Positions 54,257 to 63,281 of a DNA stretch of 64,000 bases are shown piece after piece. The position numbers and the translations under genes were made by a program. Numbering within the stretch: position 1 is the stretch's first letter; every line of letters starts with the position of its first letter. The stretch is from Apostichopus japonicus (lineage: Eukaryota > Echinodermata > Holothuroidea > Aspidochirotida > Stichopodidae), in the NCBI RefSeq assembly GCF_037975245.1, contig NC_092583.1, forward strand, positions 9,075,764 through 9,139,763. The letters are read 5' to 3'. Below the pieces are notes generated by a model. The model was given only the letters and a program-made list of their open reading frames with translations, was not told the DNA's origin and ran no database searches.

Positions 54257-55312
54257 AGTTAGTTCAGTTTAGTTTAGTAGAAAAAAGGATCAGGAGGGAC
54301 ACTTAAGTCCCCATCAAGGACCCTATAGAGAGAGAGAGAAAAAAAACATGAACACACAGACACTCAGACCCGATTACAATGCTTAAAGTGCTTGTCCAAA
54401 GCATTCTTAAACCCATTCACACTACTTGCAAGTACAACTTTCTCAGGCAAACCATTCCACTCATTCACAACCCTATTAGAAAAAAATTATGCCGAATATT
54501 AATCCTACTATGCGACTTTTGGAGTTTAAGACAATGATCTCTAGTACAACTACTGTTAGCAAACAAGAAAAATTCGGTAAAGGATAAATTGTCGAAACCA
54601 TTCACAATCTTGAAAACCTGGATCAAGTCCCCACGTAACCTCCTAAGCTCCAGTGTGGTGAGATTCAACAGTTGTAACCGCCTATAATAAGGAACCCTCT
54701 TTAAGGAACTAATCATCCTAGTAGCCCTCCTCTGGACCTTTTCAAGTACTTCCTTATCCTTAGCAAAGTAAGGGTTCCAAGCCTGCACAGCATACTCCAG
54801 ATGAGGCTTAACCAACTGCTTATAAAGCCTAACTACGATGTCCTCTTTCAGAAAACTGAAGTTCCTCTTGATCATACCTAAAACCCTATTACCTCTTTTA
54901 GCAGCTTCAAGACAATGTTTAGAAGGTTGCAGAGATGAGTCAATGTAGATACCTAGGTCTCTTTCAACAGAGACCTCCTGTAACTCCACACCATTAAGAT
55001 TGTATGTAAACTTTTGGTTACTACTACCAATATGCATTACCTCACAGTTATCAATATTAAAAAGCATTTGCCACCCCTGAGACCAGGAAAAAATCTTATC
55101 CAAATCCGCTTGAAATTTCTCAGAATCGCTTTTGGAAGAGACCTCAGAATACAATTTGGTGTCATCAGCAAACTTCTTAGCTTTACACAAAATATCTCCG
55201 TCATGTCATTTATATAGGCAACAAACAACAAGGGACCTACCCTTGTGGAACCCCACTAGTAACGTTCTGCCAAGAAGAAGCACAGCCTTTAATTACCACC
55301 CTCTGTTCCCTA
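54257..55312 (-). mobile_element. CR1-like LINE, 3' half (split by insertion)
   Basis: Minus strand. It encodes the second half of a non-LTR reverse transcriptase: KGCASSWQNVTSGVPQG, a frame break where SVL of the usual QGSVLGP is lost, then GPLLFVAYINDM, KKFADDTKLYSEV (intact FADD box) and HLEYAVQAWNPYFAKDKEVL. A second frame slip in a T7 run near 54483 precedes the C-terminus (VVNEWNGLPEKVV). The 3' end carries a CTAAACTAAACT-type tail. It is continuous with the piece at 62510-63281. Confidence 0.85.
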
Positions 55313-55335
55313 CACTGCAAAAACTCCGGTGTTAA
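55313..55335 (+). repeat. Left terminal inverted repeat
   Basis: CACTGCAAAAACTC, then C (G in the other arm), then GGTGTTAA. Confidence 0.9.
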
Positions 55336-55602
55336 CATTTTGGATTTAGCTTGTCGGTGTTGAATTCAGTGTTGATTTGACACCAAAGAGAATGCAATCT
55401 GACCTTCAACCTCGTTCAGGTAGAAGTTTCAGCCAATCCTTTTCCAAGTTACTCTCCTTAACGCGTAAATACATGATGTCATAGAAATCGGGACTCCTAA
55501 TTGGTCCATAGTAGTGGCAGTAATTATCATATCGATATTGTCGGCGAAGCTGTTACAGCCAAAGTTGCGCAAAGCAGACGAGGTGCAAACGAAGGGGGCA
55601 AT

Positions 55603-55675
55603 ATGTTCGTTTATTTTAGAAATGAAGAAAGGAAAGTTGTGGTGTTCAAGGAATTCAGAGATTTGATTGAAACAG
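55603..55675 (+). CDS. CIDE-N gene exon 1
   Basis: ATG start, 73 nt, donor G|GTATGC, phase 1. It encodes the first strands of the CIDE-N-like domain. Confidence 0.6.
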
Positions 55676-57267
55676 GTATGCATTCTTTTGGAGATAAGCT
55701 GTGTATAGCCTATAGGTTTTAACTTTCTCGTGAAATGATAGGCAATCCACGGAGGCAAGGGAAGGTTGCCTTTCATAACTTCATCATAGGCAGATGCCTA
55801 ACGGAAGCCTATTGCGTAACCTAGGCCTAGGCTAATTGTTGCCGAAGGCCCTATAGCCTCTACAGGCCCAAAGCCTAGGCCTATAGATCATTTGTAACGT
55901 TATAAATCATTGCGTAAGCCTATAGAGCTGGCAGTTTAATTACTACTTTCCCTTGAACAGGGCTGTGTATCACTATTATATGTATCACTTTTAAATTAAG
56001 AGTACTTCTTTCCCTTTTACTAATTCAATGTGAAATGGAGAGTGATAGTTATACCATTAGCCTACTCCATACTCCATAGTCTCGAATATAATGCATGTAT
56101 GATGTAGCCTAGCCCAGTTCAAAGGGTCGTCGACGACTTGACCTAGCCTATATGTATAGTTTACGCCCCAGCTAGTTTAACTTAATAAGGACGTACCCCT
56201 ACTGTAAGTTGAAGCCTACAGTTCTATTGGCCACCAACAAAACTAGAGTAAGGTCCTTAAATAGCCTCACACTCATCATCACACTGATTATAATGCAAGC
56301 AATATAATTTTGAGGTGGGTTCTCAATCGTTTCGTGCTGCATTAAGCTGCTGTCGAAAGACATAATAAATAAGTTGCATTGAATCTCTTGCTGTTGAGCA
56401 TGTCTAATCATCTCTGTGTTCATGAATAGACTTTTTATTATAAGTAGTTAGTAGACTTAAATGAAATTGTTACACTGGAAAGCCATAGGGCATCAAATTT
56501 CATGCCTAGTAGCTTGCATCCCTCAATAATCCACAAGAACATTTGATGCAGATTTAGCCAACACAAAGACCAAATATGTGATAGGCCTTATATGATTTCC
56601 AATATTTCCAATTGATGACAGACTGCATATCTTAGATTAAAAGAAACTATGTAAAGCTTGTTTGTTATGTTGGTTTTGGCCAACTTTTGACTGCGAAAGG
56701 AAGCATATGTCTAGCGTACATGCTTAGAAAGGCAAAAAAGTAGATAATTTTGAAGCACTTCATTACATATTTACATTGTCAATCTTGATTTTCAAAGTAA
56801 AACTTGTACTGCAGGTCTAAGTGATTTCACTGTAGGCTTTTTCTGCAAGGCATGTGTAGGGTGAATGTATTGCAGTCTATATGGTAGTTTTATTACCATT
56901 AAATGTTGGCTAATTGCCTCGTTAGGGCAAATTCTTAAAAAATCAGCAGTTTTTACCATTTGATTTACAAATTCAGACAAATGAAGCCCCAACTTTTGGT
57001 CACTATGTTTCTGTTTGTATACTATCTTGCAAACATGCAATTTGCTGAGAAAAATGACTTTGAGCATGAGTTAGACATGACGCTCTCTGTGCAGGCCAAC
57101 TTAAGGGAGTAAATTTAATGATACAAGGTCAAGGGCTGTTAAATTTAATGCGTACAGACCTATTTCAGGGCTTAGTCCTAACAAAATAGACTTAAGTATA
57201 TATGCATGACTAAATCAAAAGTATGATACTTGCTGGTTTATTCTATTTTCTTTCATATATGATACAG

Positions 57268-57411
57268 CAAAGAAGAAATTCAAAATTGCTGAAGATGTGA
57301 TACTTGTGGATAGAGAGGATGGAGCAGAGTTTGATGAAGATTCTCTTGTACCTCTCCTTGAAATGGAGCAAAACACAGCCATCATGGTGTTAAAGAGAGG
57401 TGAAAAGTGGG
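57268..57411 (+). CDS. CIDE-N gene exon 2
   Basis: Acceptor ATGATACAG, 144 nt, phase 1 on both sides. It encodes KKKFKIAEDVILVDREDGAE and MVLKRGEKW, the second half of the CIDE-N-like domain with its closing E-K-W. Confidence 0.7.
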
Positions 57412-58166
57412 GTTAGTGGCAAATAAGGAGCTACAGACAATGCAAAATACTCTGCTTACATGAATAACCAATAATTTCCAATGGGAAAATGAAGGTTAGT
57501 GTGGTGGGATCTCTGACAACAATTCCTTAATTAGGAATAAGCCTATACCTTTTGTCACAGAAAAGATCCCAGAGGTTCCTCAAAAATGACATTTGTTGTT
57601 GTTTTCGCCTCGTTTGGTGGATAACACCTCAGACTGGCTCCTTGATCCCCAGCATTTCAAATTGGGAATTTTGTTTACTTTCCATACCACATTGAGAGTA
57701 GTGTGTAAGCATAGTTTATACAGTGGCAGTCACAATCATATGGTCAAGATAACAAGGGTTGAACGTTGAATTTTGACTGCAGTTTATCAGCGTTGTACTG
57801 TTTTTCCCATAATTTTGGCAATTCCCAAACGCAAAACACAGAAGATTTGAAGAAATGTCTCATGTAGTGAGGGTATATGCAAGTACAGCAAAACAGATAA
57901 GACTTAATTGCAACTAAGGGGTAGCAGCTCTGCAGCAGTTTTAATGTCTGGTTCTTATGGCTAGTTCTGTGAAGTTTTGAAATCAATGTGTTACATTAAT
58001 TGCCATTTTTTGTGTGGTTGTAGGATTGATTACTGGTTAACCGATTGAAAAATTTGACCGGTTATCAGTTCATGGATTGTTAGAAAATGCACATTCCTAT
58101 TCATTACAAGAAATGTGTTCACCTATCTCTAGCTATGTGCTTAACAGCAGATTTTCTTTTATTTAG

Positions 58167-58330
58167 TATCTCCAGCAGCTGCAAGGGTTAAAATAGACAG
58201 CAATTCAGATACTGATGTAATTTCTGAGGAAGATGATACTCAAGATTATGCTAATCTTCCCTCCACCAGTTCTGCACCTCCCATGAAAAGATTTAAGGAA
58301 ACAGAAGCAACAACAGATGAGGCAGCTGAG
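58167..58330 (+). CDS. CIDE-N gene exon 3
   Basis: Acceptor TTTTATTTAG, donor GAG|GTAATC. It encodes an acidic, Ser/Thr-rich disordered linker with a short basic patch (PPMKRFKE). Confidence 0.6.
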
Positions 58331-58982
58331 GTAATCACATTTAAACATTTCTTTTAATGTTGAGGGCTTTATACCATTCAATGGAAACCTACAACATGGC
58401 AAAACATTTGCTCCAATTAGAAAGTTTTGGTATCCTCCTTTGCATTTAACAATCTTTGTGACAATGTATTGTATTTATTAATAATGCTTGAATCCACTTT
58501 GCTCCCAAAGACTTTGGATATATAGCATAAAACAACTCAAGAGCTGCATACATTGGTGTTGGATTTGGGGTTTGACATCTGGACTGAACAGAAATATTAC
58601 TTTTGAGATTTTCATATTTGCTATTAATTTTTAAGATTCTGAACAGTCAGTAACCTAACAAATTGATGTAGCCTTAAGCATTATGGGTTGAGGTGGGTGT
58701 CACCAATGTAAAATATGAATGGATTTGGTGGGAAAATAAGTGGGACTGACGTTTTGATGCTGGGAAGATCTCCTGTAGAAGTCATCTCTGGATTTGGAAT
58801 GGTCTTTGGGTATCCAATTTAGGATTTCAAAGGACATTAGAAAACAATAATACTAATATTAAAATAAAAAGAATGAAGGTCTTTTACTAATTTATGTTAC
58901 AAAAGCTCTAATTATGAATCTCTAAAGTTCATTACAACTTTCAAGAATCCTTGTATTTTTTTCTACACTTTATTAAGTGCAG

Positions 58983-59107
58983 TTCTTCAAAAAAAGTGCA
59001 AGTGGAGCCACTGTTTTAGCTGAATACAGAGCCCAAAAGTGTCTGAACGAAAAGTCCAGGAGATTGTTGGTAAACATTGTAGTTGCTAACATGATGGAAG
59101 TACATGG
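58983..59107 (+). CDS. CIDE-N gene exon 4 (SAMD3-like region)
   Basis: Acceptor TTATTAAGTGCAG, donor GG|GTAAGT, phase 2 out. It encodes FFKKSASGATVLAEYRAQK and EKSRRLLVNIVVANMM. Confidence 0.65.
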
Positions 59108-59989
59108 GTAAGTTTTATTTTTGTAGTTGTAAACAGAGAAAATCATGATTGCTGCAATGAAATGCTTAAAACTTTAACATGTCTATGAACATGGATTAAT
59201 TGACACATGTAAGTAAGTAAGTGCTCCATTGATGAAACATTTAGCTGGTCAACCCATGAAGATAGTTGGGAAATTGGAGAGTGGCAGTAACAATTTCTGA
59301 CTGCCACACTTGTGCCAATTTTTAATCAGGCTAATTGGTATGTTCCTGTTACAGAATGAGTTGTCTGTTGCTTTGTCAGATCTGATCCTGAGCTGGGGAT
59401 CCATTGTAAACTTAGCCTTAAAGATCTCCTGCATTGGCCCCAAATTAGCACAATAATAGAAAAAATGTGTTTGCTTTCAAGGACAGTGATGTGACATGAT
59501 CAGTATTAACCATTGAACACCAGGTATTGCTTTTCATTTTAAATATTCTCCACAGACAATACCATATGCTGAAAGACACATGTTATTGAAATTGTGTACA
59601 CAAACTTAGTTGGGCTAACCCAGGCAGTTCAATTTCATTATGTTAGAAACTTTCCTAGTTCATAGCATGTTATATTTGGGAGCTCTGACCAATACAGCAG
59701 ATAGCTGAGCGCCTTTAAAGACCCCTTTCTCCTCTGTGCAAGTGAATTTCAAGACCCAGGTTATTAAATTCAGCATTGGTCCATTGTTGTTTTTAAGAAT
59801 ACACAACATTTGAACTGACCAGTATTGCAGGTTTATGGCAGATTTGTGGTGAGAGAAAAGGGCCTTTAAGTAATCACTCATTTAGTAAGGCAAACATCTA
59901 ATACACTAATATCACACTTTATTATGATATAATATACTATTACACCATATTATAATACACTTTATTTCCCCCTACATCTACCATCACAG

Positions 59990-60090
59990 ACGGACGCCAC
60001 CTACGGTCACAAAAAGAAAAAAAGAAAAATGCAGTCGGTATTGTCAACCTGTTTGAAAACCTTCAAGACCCATACACACCAACAGGTCAT
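59990..60090 (+). CDS. CIDE-N gene exon 5 with frameshift
   Basis: Acceptor ACCATCACAG, donor CAT|GTAAGT. It enters as GRTPPTVTKRK and must lose one base in an A-rich run to read NAVGIVNLFENLQDPYTPTG. Confidence 0.6.
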
Positions 60091-60732
60091 GTAAGTAATT
60101 AATTTAAATAAACTGCAGGAGGACCCAAAACCCCCACCAAGGGTTTTTGGATTAAACACTTGCTGTCATAGGGACATTATTGTAAATTTTGGAACTATAC
60201 TTCAAAACAGTTGTTCTGCAGTATCATAGTTTAACATTAAATGCAGGGAAAAGGCATACATGCATAGGAGGGGAAATGGTTTGTCTAATGCAGGGCCAGT
60301 CAAATTTTACATTATAGGTATCATGATCTTTCCAGGACAAGAGGAGAACTTTTTTTCTCACTTAAAATGTTGGGACATGCATGATTTGGAACTGGACATT
60401 GCCATGGAAAACATTTCATCTCCCCCCCCCCCCCTTTGCAATTCTTCCTTTAGATGCCCATGACTTCAGTAGAAACAGAGGAAGTTGTGGTTAAAGGTCT
60501 CTTGTATAAGCGCTGTAGTTTTGCTAGTTCAAACTAAAATTACTGCCACATACTCATAATTTCTGAGAGTGTTTTTGATGGTAAAGATGTCTTGGAAGCT
60601 ACTTATGAAAACTCCTAGCAATTTTCAACCTACAGCTTAACTTGGGAAATGCTATTAAGAAATCTCCAACTGGAGAGTGGTACATAAAATGAACCACAGC
60701 TAGTACTAAGTACATTTCATTATTATTTTCAG

Positions 60733-61096
60733 GAAGCTTTTTATGATGAAAGAACCAAAGGAGGATTCCTTGCAGCAAGGATAAAAAAACGTCAATAGAG
60801 GAGAACATCATTCTGAACAATCAAACATAACTCCAAAGGACCCTGCCTGCAAGCAAGATGGAGACCCCATGCTTAAAAGGCCATTACATGCTGTGTCTGA
60901 TAACCTGCAATCTGAAGATAACACTACAGCAGATGTAAACTGGATGAAACATACCCCTGCTGTATCTACAGATTCTAATTTGGTCTCTGAGAGGATGAAA
61001 AATACTCTATTAGTGAGGAGAAACATGGTCAATGCTATGAATTCAGCAGGGCATATAATAGAGGAATTTCCACAATTCAAGATTACTCGAGGCCTT
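60733..61096 (+). CDS. CIDE-N gene exon 6 with frameshift
   Basis: Acceptor TATTATTTTCAG. It encodes HEAFYDERTKGGFLAARIK, meets TAG at 60796 in frame, but continues in another frame after one A is removed from the A7 run (VNRGEHHSEQSNITPKDPA, then ERMKNTLLVRRNMVNAMN). A donor CTT|GTGAGT at 61097 suggests a further exon I could not locate. Confidence 0.55.
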
Positions 61097-62277
61097 GTGA
61101 GTATGACACAAAGTATTCTGACTGGTGTCATGTATGCTATTAGACTGTGGATTGCATGCATTTACAAGTGTGCGGGGGAGATATGTCTGTCATGGGCATG
61201 GACGTCGCTAGAGGGGGTGTGGGGGTTGCGACTGTCGCACTTTAAACTTTCCAACTGTCGCACTCTCATTTTCACATATTCTTATAATTTGCGAGTGACC
61301 TAACATTTTCGGTCAAAATTGACCTTCAATCAGTCATTTTCACCACGTTTTCTTTGTCAAATTGAGACATTGTATCTCGCGATCCTTATACTCCACCATA
61401 AAAAACTTTGTTAGAGTTTTGTTTGTAGCACACTGTTTTACAAACCATTGTTTCATGGATTTGCTGTGAAAGAGGCAGTACCTCAGCAGACTTCTGTCAG
61501 GAAAACCAGTGAACTTGTTGACTTCAAACCACTGTCATTACTGAGGATTCAATCCAGATGTGATCATACACTTATGTCTGTCCAAGGCACATAATTTTTC
61601 AATGAGTTAATTTTGCACATTTTTTGGCTGAAGTAACCCAGTCAGTGTTCGTTTCTAACAATTGTTTTTATCTGTGAACAGTTATTAAATTGTTTCGCCA
61701 GCTAGAATATTAGAGAACATGCTACAAATTACCTTTTAATCAGTGTTATGTGATTGCCAATGGTTCAGTTATGTTCAAACATATAATTATCAAAGTAACA
61801 CTGTGTTATAGTTCAAGTGTAAAGATACGAATACACAGTGTACATTGTATACATACATCCGGGTATTAAAGTGTGATATCATTGGTTTCCATGCATGTGT
61901 TTATCAGTTTAAGACAAAGGTATAATATTAACTTTAAGCATTTATAATATGCAAGCATTATGATCTGATTTATCTTCATTAAAAAATAAGTTTCTAATCA
62001 GTTTATGGGCTTGCTCATGTTAGACAAGCTTTTGTTCATTCTTGTTTATGCACTTAATAAGGTGTTTTCTGTACAACTGATGCTTCTAAGATGAATATAA
62101 AAAACGTGTAACACATTTAAAATGGCATCTATGGCTTTTATCTGTTGTTTATTGCTTATGCGTATTGTCCAGCCCAGACTTTGGCGATACCTTGGAAAGG
62201 TGTTTTACAAAATACAGAATTAACACGATCTGGATTGGATAAAGAAACTTGCAATTCAACATCAGTGGGAAGATCTA

Positions 62278-62509
62278 AATAACACCATTTTTGGTGTTAA
62301 AATCAATTCAGTTAGTGTTAATTTTACACCAACCAGAGTAACAATATCAACACCAAAGATAATGAATTTAACACCCTTTGTGGTGTAAAGAAAAGGATTC
62401 TCAACTTGGTGTTAATTTAACACCCGCTGGTGTTGGCAAATATGCACTCCAAAAAGAATACAAATTTAACACCATGGGTGTTAAATTTAACACCCGAGTT
62501 TTTGCAGTG
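62278..62509. repeat. Subterminal GGTGTTAA/TTAACACC motif array
   Basis: At least ten GGTGTT or AACACC half-sites lie within 230 bp, several paired as palindromes (AACACCATTTTTGGTGTT; GGTGTTAATTTAACACC; GGTGTTAAATTTAACACC). This is typical of transposase-binding subterminal repeats. Confidence 0.75.
62487..62509 (-). repeat. Right terminal inverted repeat
   Basis: Reverse complement of the left end, with 22 of 23 positions identical. Confidence 0.9.
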
Positions 62510-63281
62510 TATTACCAAGCCAATTCCCGATCCAAGACAGTAAATTCCCTATGACACCCATGCTCTTCAGCCTAAGTAAAAGACGCTGGTGGGGAACTTT
62601 ATCAAAGGCATTCTGGAAATCCAGGAACACGACATCTACAGACCTCTGCCTATTTAGTGAACTTGCTACATCTTCCATAAACTCAAGGATATTAGTGAGA
62701 CAAGACCTTTTTTGACAAAAGCCATGTTGAGACTCTCTGGTCAAAGACTGACTGCTGAAGTGACAGACCATAGACCTTTTAACAATAGACTCCATGACCT
62801 TACAAACTACACTAGTGAGACTAACGGGCCTATAATTACAGGGCTTAGACTTATCACCCTTCTTGAAAATTGGGGTAATATTAGCACATCTCCAGTCCCT
62901 AGGAACATAACCTTCATCCATAAATTTACTAAAAACCAACGAGAGTGGAACGCAGAAATGATGTGCAAAAGTCTTCAACAAATACGGATGGATTGCATCC
63001 GGTCCAGAAGCTTTAGAAACATTTAGACGAAGCAGCTCCTTTAAGACAACCTCATTCGAAAATAAGACCGTATCCAGTTAAGGCCTATCACTGCCCCCCT
63101 GAAAATCTGGAATACTACTCGTATCTTCCCTTGTGAAAACCGACACAAAATAGTTGTTCAAAAGATCTGCGAGATCCTGACTATCAGTTACTATATTATC
63201 AGCCTGTGGTGCCCTAAGAGAAACAATTGCATCTTTTACTTTCTGCTTTGACCTGACATAAGAAAAGAAAGTTCTTCAGGC
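62510..63281 (-). mobile_element. CR1-like LINE, 5' half (split, 5'-truncated)
   Basis: Minus strand. It encodes TFFSYVRSKQKVKDAIV, then NNYFVSVFTREDTSS, an in-frame TAA at 63078-63080, KASGPDAIHPYLLKTF, NYRPVSLTSVVCKVMESIV and VVFLDFQNAFDKVPHQ with the first catalytic Asp (FDKV) intact. It breaks off at IGNWLGN exactly where the inserted element begins and resumes at REQRVVIKG in the piece ending at 55312. The 5' truncation is near 63281. Confidence 0.85.

Follow-up and report, generated by a model that had tools for sequence, protein, structure and literature searches.

The stretch of DNA analysed here, referred to as the window, comprises 64,000 nucleotides of the Apostichopus japonicus genome (C23:9075764-9139763). 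It contains a 7197-bp DNA transposon with CACTG ends, and inside the transposon lie six exons of a gene called SAMD3-like, a provisional label taken over from an earlier sequence-only reading of the window. That reading proposed that SAMD3-like proteins may be genes of a group of DNA transposons or its regular cargo. Searches of the same genome (671.58 Mb, 35 contigs) showed that longer relatives of the element also encode a transposase and that the pair of genes recurs in several transposon families. This supports the view that, in this genome, the SAMD3-like gene belongs regularly to a group of transposons and was not picked up by chance. The features of the window copy are listed below, with the evidence for each in brackets.

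55311 to 55312, no strand: left target-site duplication, TA (sequence and empty site)
55313 to 62509, plus strand: non-autonomous CACTA-type transposon, an internal-deletion derivative of 7197 bp (ends, copies and copy comparison)
55313 to 55335, plus strand: left terminal inverted repeat, 23 bp, CACTGCAAAAACTCCGGTGTTAA (inverted-end comparison)
55603 to 55675, plus strand: SAMD3-like exon 1, start of the CIDE-N domain (gene model; domain scored on sister copy C12)
57268 to 57411, plus strand: SAMD3-like exon 2, rest of the CIDE-N domain (own match of 26.0 bits at C23:9133030-9133173)
58167 to 58330, plus strand: SAMD3-like exon 3, acidic linker (gene model)
58983 to 59107, plus strand: SAMD3-like exon 4, with a 7-A run that is 6-A in long copies (gene model and copy comparison)
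59990 to 60090, plus strand: SAMD3-like exon 5, 7 nt longer than in copy C12, frameshift (copy comparison)
60733 to 61096, plus strand: SAMD3-like exon 6, 1 nt longer than in copy C12, frameshift, with a stop at 60796-60798 in the shifted frame (copy comparison)
61197 to 61420, plus strand: deletion-junction segment, 224 bp, no match in the five copies compared (copy comparison)
61421 to 61602, plus strand: transposase open reading frame, remnant comprising its last 183 nt (copy comparison)
62061 to 62494, no strand: right subterminal region; the last 500 bp hold 12 GGTGTT/AACACC sites, some of them palindromic (motif count)
62487 to 62509, minus strand: right terminal inverted repeat, one mismatch (inverted-end comparison)
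62510 to 62511, no strand: right target-site duplication, TA (sequence and empty site)

The boundaries of the element can be defined from its ends, its copies and an empty site. With the flanking TA counted in, 24 of 25 nt are complementary between 55311-55335 and 62487-62511, and of the 19 GGTGTT/AACACC sites in the element, 15 are found no more than 500 bp from an end, three of them in the first 500 bp. The inverted ends, TA duplications and palindromic subterminal motifs described in the sequence-only reading are real, and its view of the element as a DNA transposon is supported. Used as genome queries, the left 401 bp of the element gave 42 matches, 12 of them at 99-100%, and the right 381 bp gave 46. 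In the 20 copies read with both ends, which were selected as matched by both searches, the right boundary is identical throughout and the left boundary in 19; a matching 2-bp duplication is present in 19 (14 TA, 4 CA and 1 TG). The single exception, copy L025, has an altered 5' (left) end. Joined with one TA, the flanks of the window element match C23:8922778-8923137, on the same chromosome, at 360/360 bases. This search gave 438 first-look candidates, of which the best 40 were scored; the 39 other scored matches cover the query from end to end (367-368 bases, 95-96% identity), which means that these sites also lack the element. Together, the empty site and the matching duplications show both a 2-bp target-site duplication and past movement, and the 99.0-99.5% mutual identity of seven 7.2-kb copies indicates a recent spread. 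The sequence that received the insertion is a non-LTR (long terminal repeat) retrotransposon with a reverse-transcriptase frame on the minus strand, split by the transposon into 54465-55205 and 62487-63077, the latter stretch taking in part of the transposon end.

The window copy is an internal-deletion derivative with a frameshifted SAMD3-like gene, its transposase having been lost by deletion. Three long copies of 12.36-12.40 kb are 91-96% identical to it over the shared parts, and a fourth long copy of 13.6 kb is of the same type. Each of the four matches nine SAMD3-like exons, following a gene model built on copy C12 from splice motifs, and then directly a single-exon open reading frame (ORF) of 824 aa, the transposase. 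The window copy retains exons 1-6 but has lost exons 7-9 together with the greater part of the transposase, and the early stop in exon 6 comes after the frame shift. A six-exon protein as an intact product was rejected because of the +7 and +1 nt frameshifts and the missing exons 7-9. The exons of the six-exon gene seen in the sequence-only reading are present, but as the broken first part of a nine-exon modelled gene. Five copies hold the start of the transposase ORF; in two of them, C12 and C5, it is intact, and in C7, C17 and the C9 copy it is interrupted. In all four long copies (C12, C5, C7 and C17) the SAMD3-like stop overlaps the transposase ATG as ATGA (positions 9250-9260 of L031, the C12 copy), and this overlap stands in a eukaryotic element. 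Translation of the transposase from its ATG at the overlap was considered as a candidate expression route. The A-run of exon 4 is 7 in the young short copies that were read and 6 in all four long copies, altering the reading frame, and a -1 frameshift site at this run in the long copies (TTC AAA AAA G) was likewise considered as a candidate. Between subfamilies, exons 1-4 carry fewer changes than introns (13/504 versus 208/2962, p=5e-5), and another comparison also indicated exon constraint (p=3e-4).

The statement that no transposase of known type is visible, and that the system could be an undescribed one, thus holds for the window copy only, since the longer relatives encode a transposase with a CMC/CACTA signature; an undescribed transposon class was rejected for this reason. 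Searching the same genome by tblastn with the C12 transposase gave 55 matches, 39 of which lie in stop-free frames of 831-877 aa (the two transposase searches gave 494 and 405 first-look candidates, with the best 54 scored in each). Ten distinct transposases were aligned, the others being 29-38% identical to the first. Seven columns are invariant in all ten (D291, D382, C402, C405, H614, H618 and E638), forming a D-D-C(2)C-H(3)H-E signature in which the C-x2-C spacing is kept in 9/10 (L059 is one residue shorter) and H-x3-H in 10/10. These are the putative catalytic residues, and the order D-D-C(2)C-H-H-E has been described for EnSpm, Mirage, Chapaev and Transib (PMC12730594). A CxxC..H..H motif occupies residues 1-24 in all nine transposases fetched with their start, which supports the choice of ATG. 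When a profile of the transposase alignment was compared with the PDB, the best match was a zinc-finger protein (residues 8-76, E=0.008), and one transposase matched Pfam zf-C2H2 below the cut-off. Pfam Transposase_21 (tnp2) matched four of the ten in overlapping segments (best E=6.6e-4, all below the cut-off), and DUF4218 matched one, downstream of the Transposase_21 segment and also below the cut-off (E=0.14). The window-family transposase had no Transposase_21 match in the Pfam search, a PDB sequence search with a single transposase gave a chance match only, and a comparison of the alignment with viral contigs gave 47 pattern matches and no relative. A further, very young family was seen as five transposase places with identical scores (C21:11205810, C10:15936411, C12:21006712, C16:30104230 and C20:32819642, and also C17:23379857); where its C12 and C17 copies were compared they are 99.8-99.96% identical, and the element ends lie beyond these stretches.

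The element can be filed in the CMC clade as CACTA-like from its residue signature, its sub-threshold Transposase_21 and DUF4218 matches, its ends and its 2-bp duplications. In the CMC(T) clade, ends are mostly CA..TG, and CAC..GTG for EnSpm (PMC12730594); they are CACTG in the window family and CACTC in a second family described below. Duplications in the clade are 2-5 bp, and here they are 2 bp in 19/20 window-family and 2/2 second-family copies. The clade residues, DDE with C(2)C and H(3-4)H between the second D and E, are invariant in 10/10 transposases, and the subterminal repeats typical of CACTA/EnSpm elements occur in two families, with different motifs. The 3-bp duplication of plant-type CACTA/EnSpm elements was not seen, the duplication being 2 bp. 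However, one animal CACTA element in the literature combines CAC..GTG ends with a 2-bp duplication (PMC6004678), and animal TRC elements are likewise described with duplications of 2 bp (PMC1636069), so this difference separates the element from the plant group only. The placement comes from signature and ends, and CACTA-like is meant as a broad label within the clade. A Tc1/mariner-type TA element was rejected, as the duplication may also be CA or TG and the transposase differs.

The two genes recur side by side in the genome. The last SAMD3-like exon (E9, 103 aa) was searched with two queries, giving 432 and 362 first-look candidates with the best 150 scored each, and two transposase queries were merged into 68 distinct loci. 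An E9 match lies within 15 kb at 30/68 transposase loci, on the same strand in 30/30, where 0.45 paired loci would be expected under uniform placement. In the window family E9 is upstream (five loci), and at the other 25 it is downstream at 4.4-11.4 kb. As a control set, the 40 retrotransposon places scored in the search with the joined flanks included none with E9 within 15 kb and one with a transposase in that range. An earlier count made without three fragment rows gave 52 places, 27 of them with an E9 match within 20 kb; the rows were restored for the 68-locus count. The second E9 query adds partners at two loci (C6 and C19), bringing the total to 32/68. Only the best candidates were scored, so these counts are lower bounds, and the unpaired loci may still hold the gene. 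Across nine representatives, hand-picked by score as one per family with full-length transposase matches and the others left out, E9 and the transposase covary in how similar they are to their window-family counterparts (rho=0.78, p=0.013), as expected for a long common inheritance. Ten further SAMD3-like last exons share one score with none of the 68 transposase loci nearby (C6:13795134, C9:22166224, C12:31346694 and others); these may belong to high-copy elements whose transposase has diverged or been lost.

The two genes are differently arranged in a second family. One copy was read end to end (C1:19548426-19560759, 12,334 bp); it begins CACTCTAAAAACTAAAGTGCTG and has the target-site duplication TA, and the ends of a sister copy on C16 were read with TG. 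The transposase of this family is 38% identical to that of the window family in the alignment and 39% by tblastn. The gene order is reversed, with the transposase first and the SAMD3-like gene second, both inside the family's own ends, and the subterminal motif is AAGTGCT (12 in the end segments versus 2 inside) instead of GGTGTT. Within this genome, then, the gene does lie between inverted ends, and these do not enclose unrelated interiors only. The same-strand pairing and the second family bear out the proposal of the sequence-only reading for this genome, and suggest that SAMD3-like genes are the regular second gene of CACTA-type elements, beside the transposase gene. No relevant paper on a SAMD3-like gene in transposons was found among open-licence PMC papers, Repbase lying outside this search.

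The N-terminal domain of the SAMD3-like protein differs from family to family. CIDE-N (PF02017) scores 44.8 bits on the spliced exons 1 and 2 of sister copy C12 (E=1.4e-11, cut-off 23.5), and window exon 2 alone is above the cut-off; the nearest solved sequences in a PDB search are DREP2 (E=0.0087) and CIDE-A (E=0.016). The CIDE-N-like domain reported earlier is thus confirmed in the window family, but it is not general, because other families have SAM. At E<=1 the genome gave 25 CIDE-N matches, and 18 of them belong to the window family, a count that used 22 of the 42 left-end matches. For SAM_1, nine of 61 genome matches fall within 2 kb of one of the 68 transposases, with 0.04 expected. All nine are on the strand of the transposase, seven after it and two before it, and each has an E9 match 5.9-9.6 kb downstream. 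Three SAM exons were read, two of which exceed the SAM_1 cut-off alone while the third is just under it (22.2 versus 23 bits); by splice reading all three start at profile position 27-28, and may share one intron position. The N-terminal position is held by CIDE-N in the window family, by SAM at nine other loci and perhaps by PB1 in one family. BLASTP gave no alignment between CIDE-N and the PB1-like segment, and the C-terminus of the protein has no match in Pfam or the PDB. Head-to-tail assembly is known for SAM, CIDE-N and PB1 domains alike, which suggests a repeated exchange of self-assembling domains at a single position of the protein. SAMD3 itself has an N-terminal SAM domain, a layout shared by several families here, in which SAM stands before the conserved C-terminal module. 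Unlike SAMD3, the window family has CIDE-N instead of SAM, and the proteins described here are products of multi-copy transposon genes. In the family at C7:2758319 a SAM exon lies 60 bp before the transposase match and E9 after it, an order that may place the transposase within a SAMD3-like intron. In plant Spm, the tnpD frame is described as lying in an intron (PMC2613891).

Taken together, these results make it probable that the window holds a non-autonomous copy of a CACTA-type animal transposon of the CMC clade, the SAMD3-like protein of which has the role of TnpA. In plants, En/Spm needs a transposase and a separate DNA-binding protein, TNPA, that recognises subterminal repeats (PMC2613891), and it is the match between this division of labour and the two-gene anatomy seen here from which we infer the role of the SAMD3-like protein. 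The element would move by cut and paste, its longer relatives encoding on the same strand a DDE-type transposase and a multi-exon SAMD3-like protein. The transposase, in one exon and with zinc-finger-like motifs at its start, would cut the CACTG ends. The SAMD3-like protein combines a conserved C-terminal module with an exchangeable N-terminal domain, which is CIDE-N, SAM or perhaps PB1; by analogy with En/Spm it would bind the family-specific subterminal repeats. More tentatively, its N-terminal domain may assemble head to tail on the repeat arrays and so bring the two ends together. The 7.2-kb copies would move with proteins supplied in trans.

Several observations weigh against this interpretation. 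The second-family PB1-like segment is below the cut-off (17.1 versus 23.6 bits); a genome-wide Pfam search for PB1 gave four places, none beside the 68 transposase loci, and missed this segment, and a PDB search with it gave 99 matches and no support for PB1, the 60 matches listed being EGFR-family kinases. The SAMD3-like C-terminus has no DNA-binding domain recognisable in Pfam or the PDB, and the subterminal repeats could instead be bound by the zinc-finger part of the transposase. No SAMD3-like exon was found in range at 38/68 transposase loci with the first query and at 36/68 with both, many of these lower-scoring, and the F841-type copy C10:15936399 has an intact transposase and no E9 match within 15 kb. 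No window-family copy with both genes intact was seen, the 6-A run of exon 4 breaking the modelled frame in 4/4 long copies, and exon constraint is borderline in one of the three comparisons (p=0.051). The Transposase_21 cut-off is reached by none of the ten transposases (best 19.4 versus 28.6 bits).

A serious rival, although we hold it unlikely, is that the SAMD3-like protein takes no part in building the end complex and acts as an accessory, shielding the element against silencing by the host or adjusting its expression. SAM domains are common in chromatin proteins. Against this idea, family-specific subterminal repeats suggest a matching end-binding protein, though that may be the zinc-finger part of the transposase. 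TNPA of Spm itself reactivates a methylated promoter and represses an unmethylated one (PMC1636069), and transposon-encoded TET/JBP genes in fungi are thought to act on silencing or expression (PMC12730594). Nothing in the evidence here separates an end-complex role from an accessory role.

It is improbable that the SAMD3-like genes are passenger cargo, host genes caught by chance and kept or lost without effect on transposition. The 38 transposase loci without a detected partner (first query), the concentration of 18/25 CIDE-N matches in one family and the spread of young 7.2-kb copies in which the gene is broken would all fit cargo, but the gene is on the same strand at 30/30 partnered loci, beside transposases only about 30-39% identical, in both gene orders and with correlated divergence; moreover, deletion derivatives can move by proteins supplied in trans, as in Spm/En (PMC2613891). 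Very improbable is a third possibility, in which CIDE-N engages a host apoptotic nuclease of the DFF/CAD type, either borrowed for DNA cutting or blocked from causing cell death after excision. DREP2 and CIDE-A as nearest solved sequences agree with it, but a DDE-type transposase is present, and CIDE-N was found in one family with SAM in the same place elsewhere, so the function that the families share cannot be contact with a nuclease. That the element lies outside the known superfamilies as a wholly new type, an idea raised by the sequence-only reading, is hardly credible, even with no Pfam family above its cut-off for the transposase, since its CAC..GTG ends and 2-bp duplication are in line with those reported for an animal CACTA element (PMC6004678; 2-bp also in PMC1636069), and both the D-D-CC-HH-E signature and the sub-threshold matches to Transposase_21 and DUF4218 fit the CMC clade.

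Known systems share parts of this anatomy. Like plant En/Spm (TnpA, TnpD), the elements described here have CACT-type ends, subterminal repeats and two proteins, one of them a transposase, and in the plant system deletion derivatives can move in trans (PMC2613891). They differ in having a 2-bp duplication, compared with 3 bp in a soybean CACTA element (PMC2613891), and zinc-finger-like motifs at the start of the transposase; the second protein carries CIDE-N, SAM or perhaps PB1, and is likened to TnpA by role, not by sequence. SmTRC1 and the other animal TRC (CACTA) elements, as well as ENS1_Cis of Ciona savignyi, also have animal hosts and 2-bp duplications (PMC1636069, PMC6004678). ENS1_Cis has CAC..GTG ends (PMC6004678), whereas the TRC ends that are described begin CCC (PMC1636069). 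SmTRC1 encodes a Transposase_21 transposase and a second protein; no relatives of the latter were found, and the account of the element consulted mentions no SAMD3-like gene (PMC1636069). The fungal CMCT elements Plavaka and ESTA resemble those here in their duplications (TA in ESTA, 2 or 3 bp in Plavaka) and in the C(2)C / H(3-4)H transposase signature. However, Plavaka termini are TGT..ACA or CATCA..TGATG, the accessory in some families is a TET/JBP dioxygenase, and the families described are fungal (PMC12730594).

A 2006 study of animal CACTA elements proposed that in SmTRC1 the TNPA part falls to the element's second protein, and detected no relatives of that protein (PMC1636069). The second gene described here, a partner of the transposase in several families of a single genome, provides a candidate for this TNPA part. 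A broader model can be put forward tentatively, although we regard it as rather doubtful, in which the accessory protein of animal CACTA transposons joins a polymer-forming head, with SAM, CIDE-N and PB1 interchangeable, to a conserved end-recognising body. The resulting filament would coat the subterminal repeats and pair the ends. Fish and invertebrate SAMD3-like genes would then belong to such transposons, and SAMD3 would be a domesticated descendant. The repeated swap of self-assembling domains is a directly testable idea. If the interpretation is true, the abundance of 'SAMD3-like' genes in fish and invertebrate annotations, as stated by the sequence-only reading, would be explained as transposon genes.

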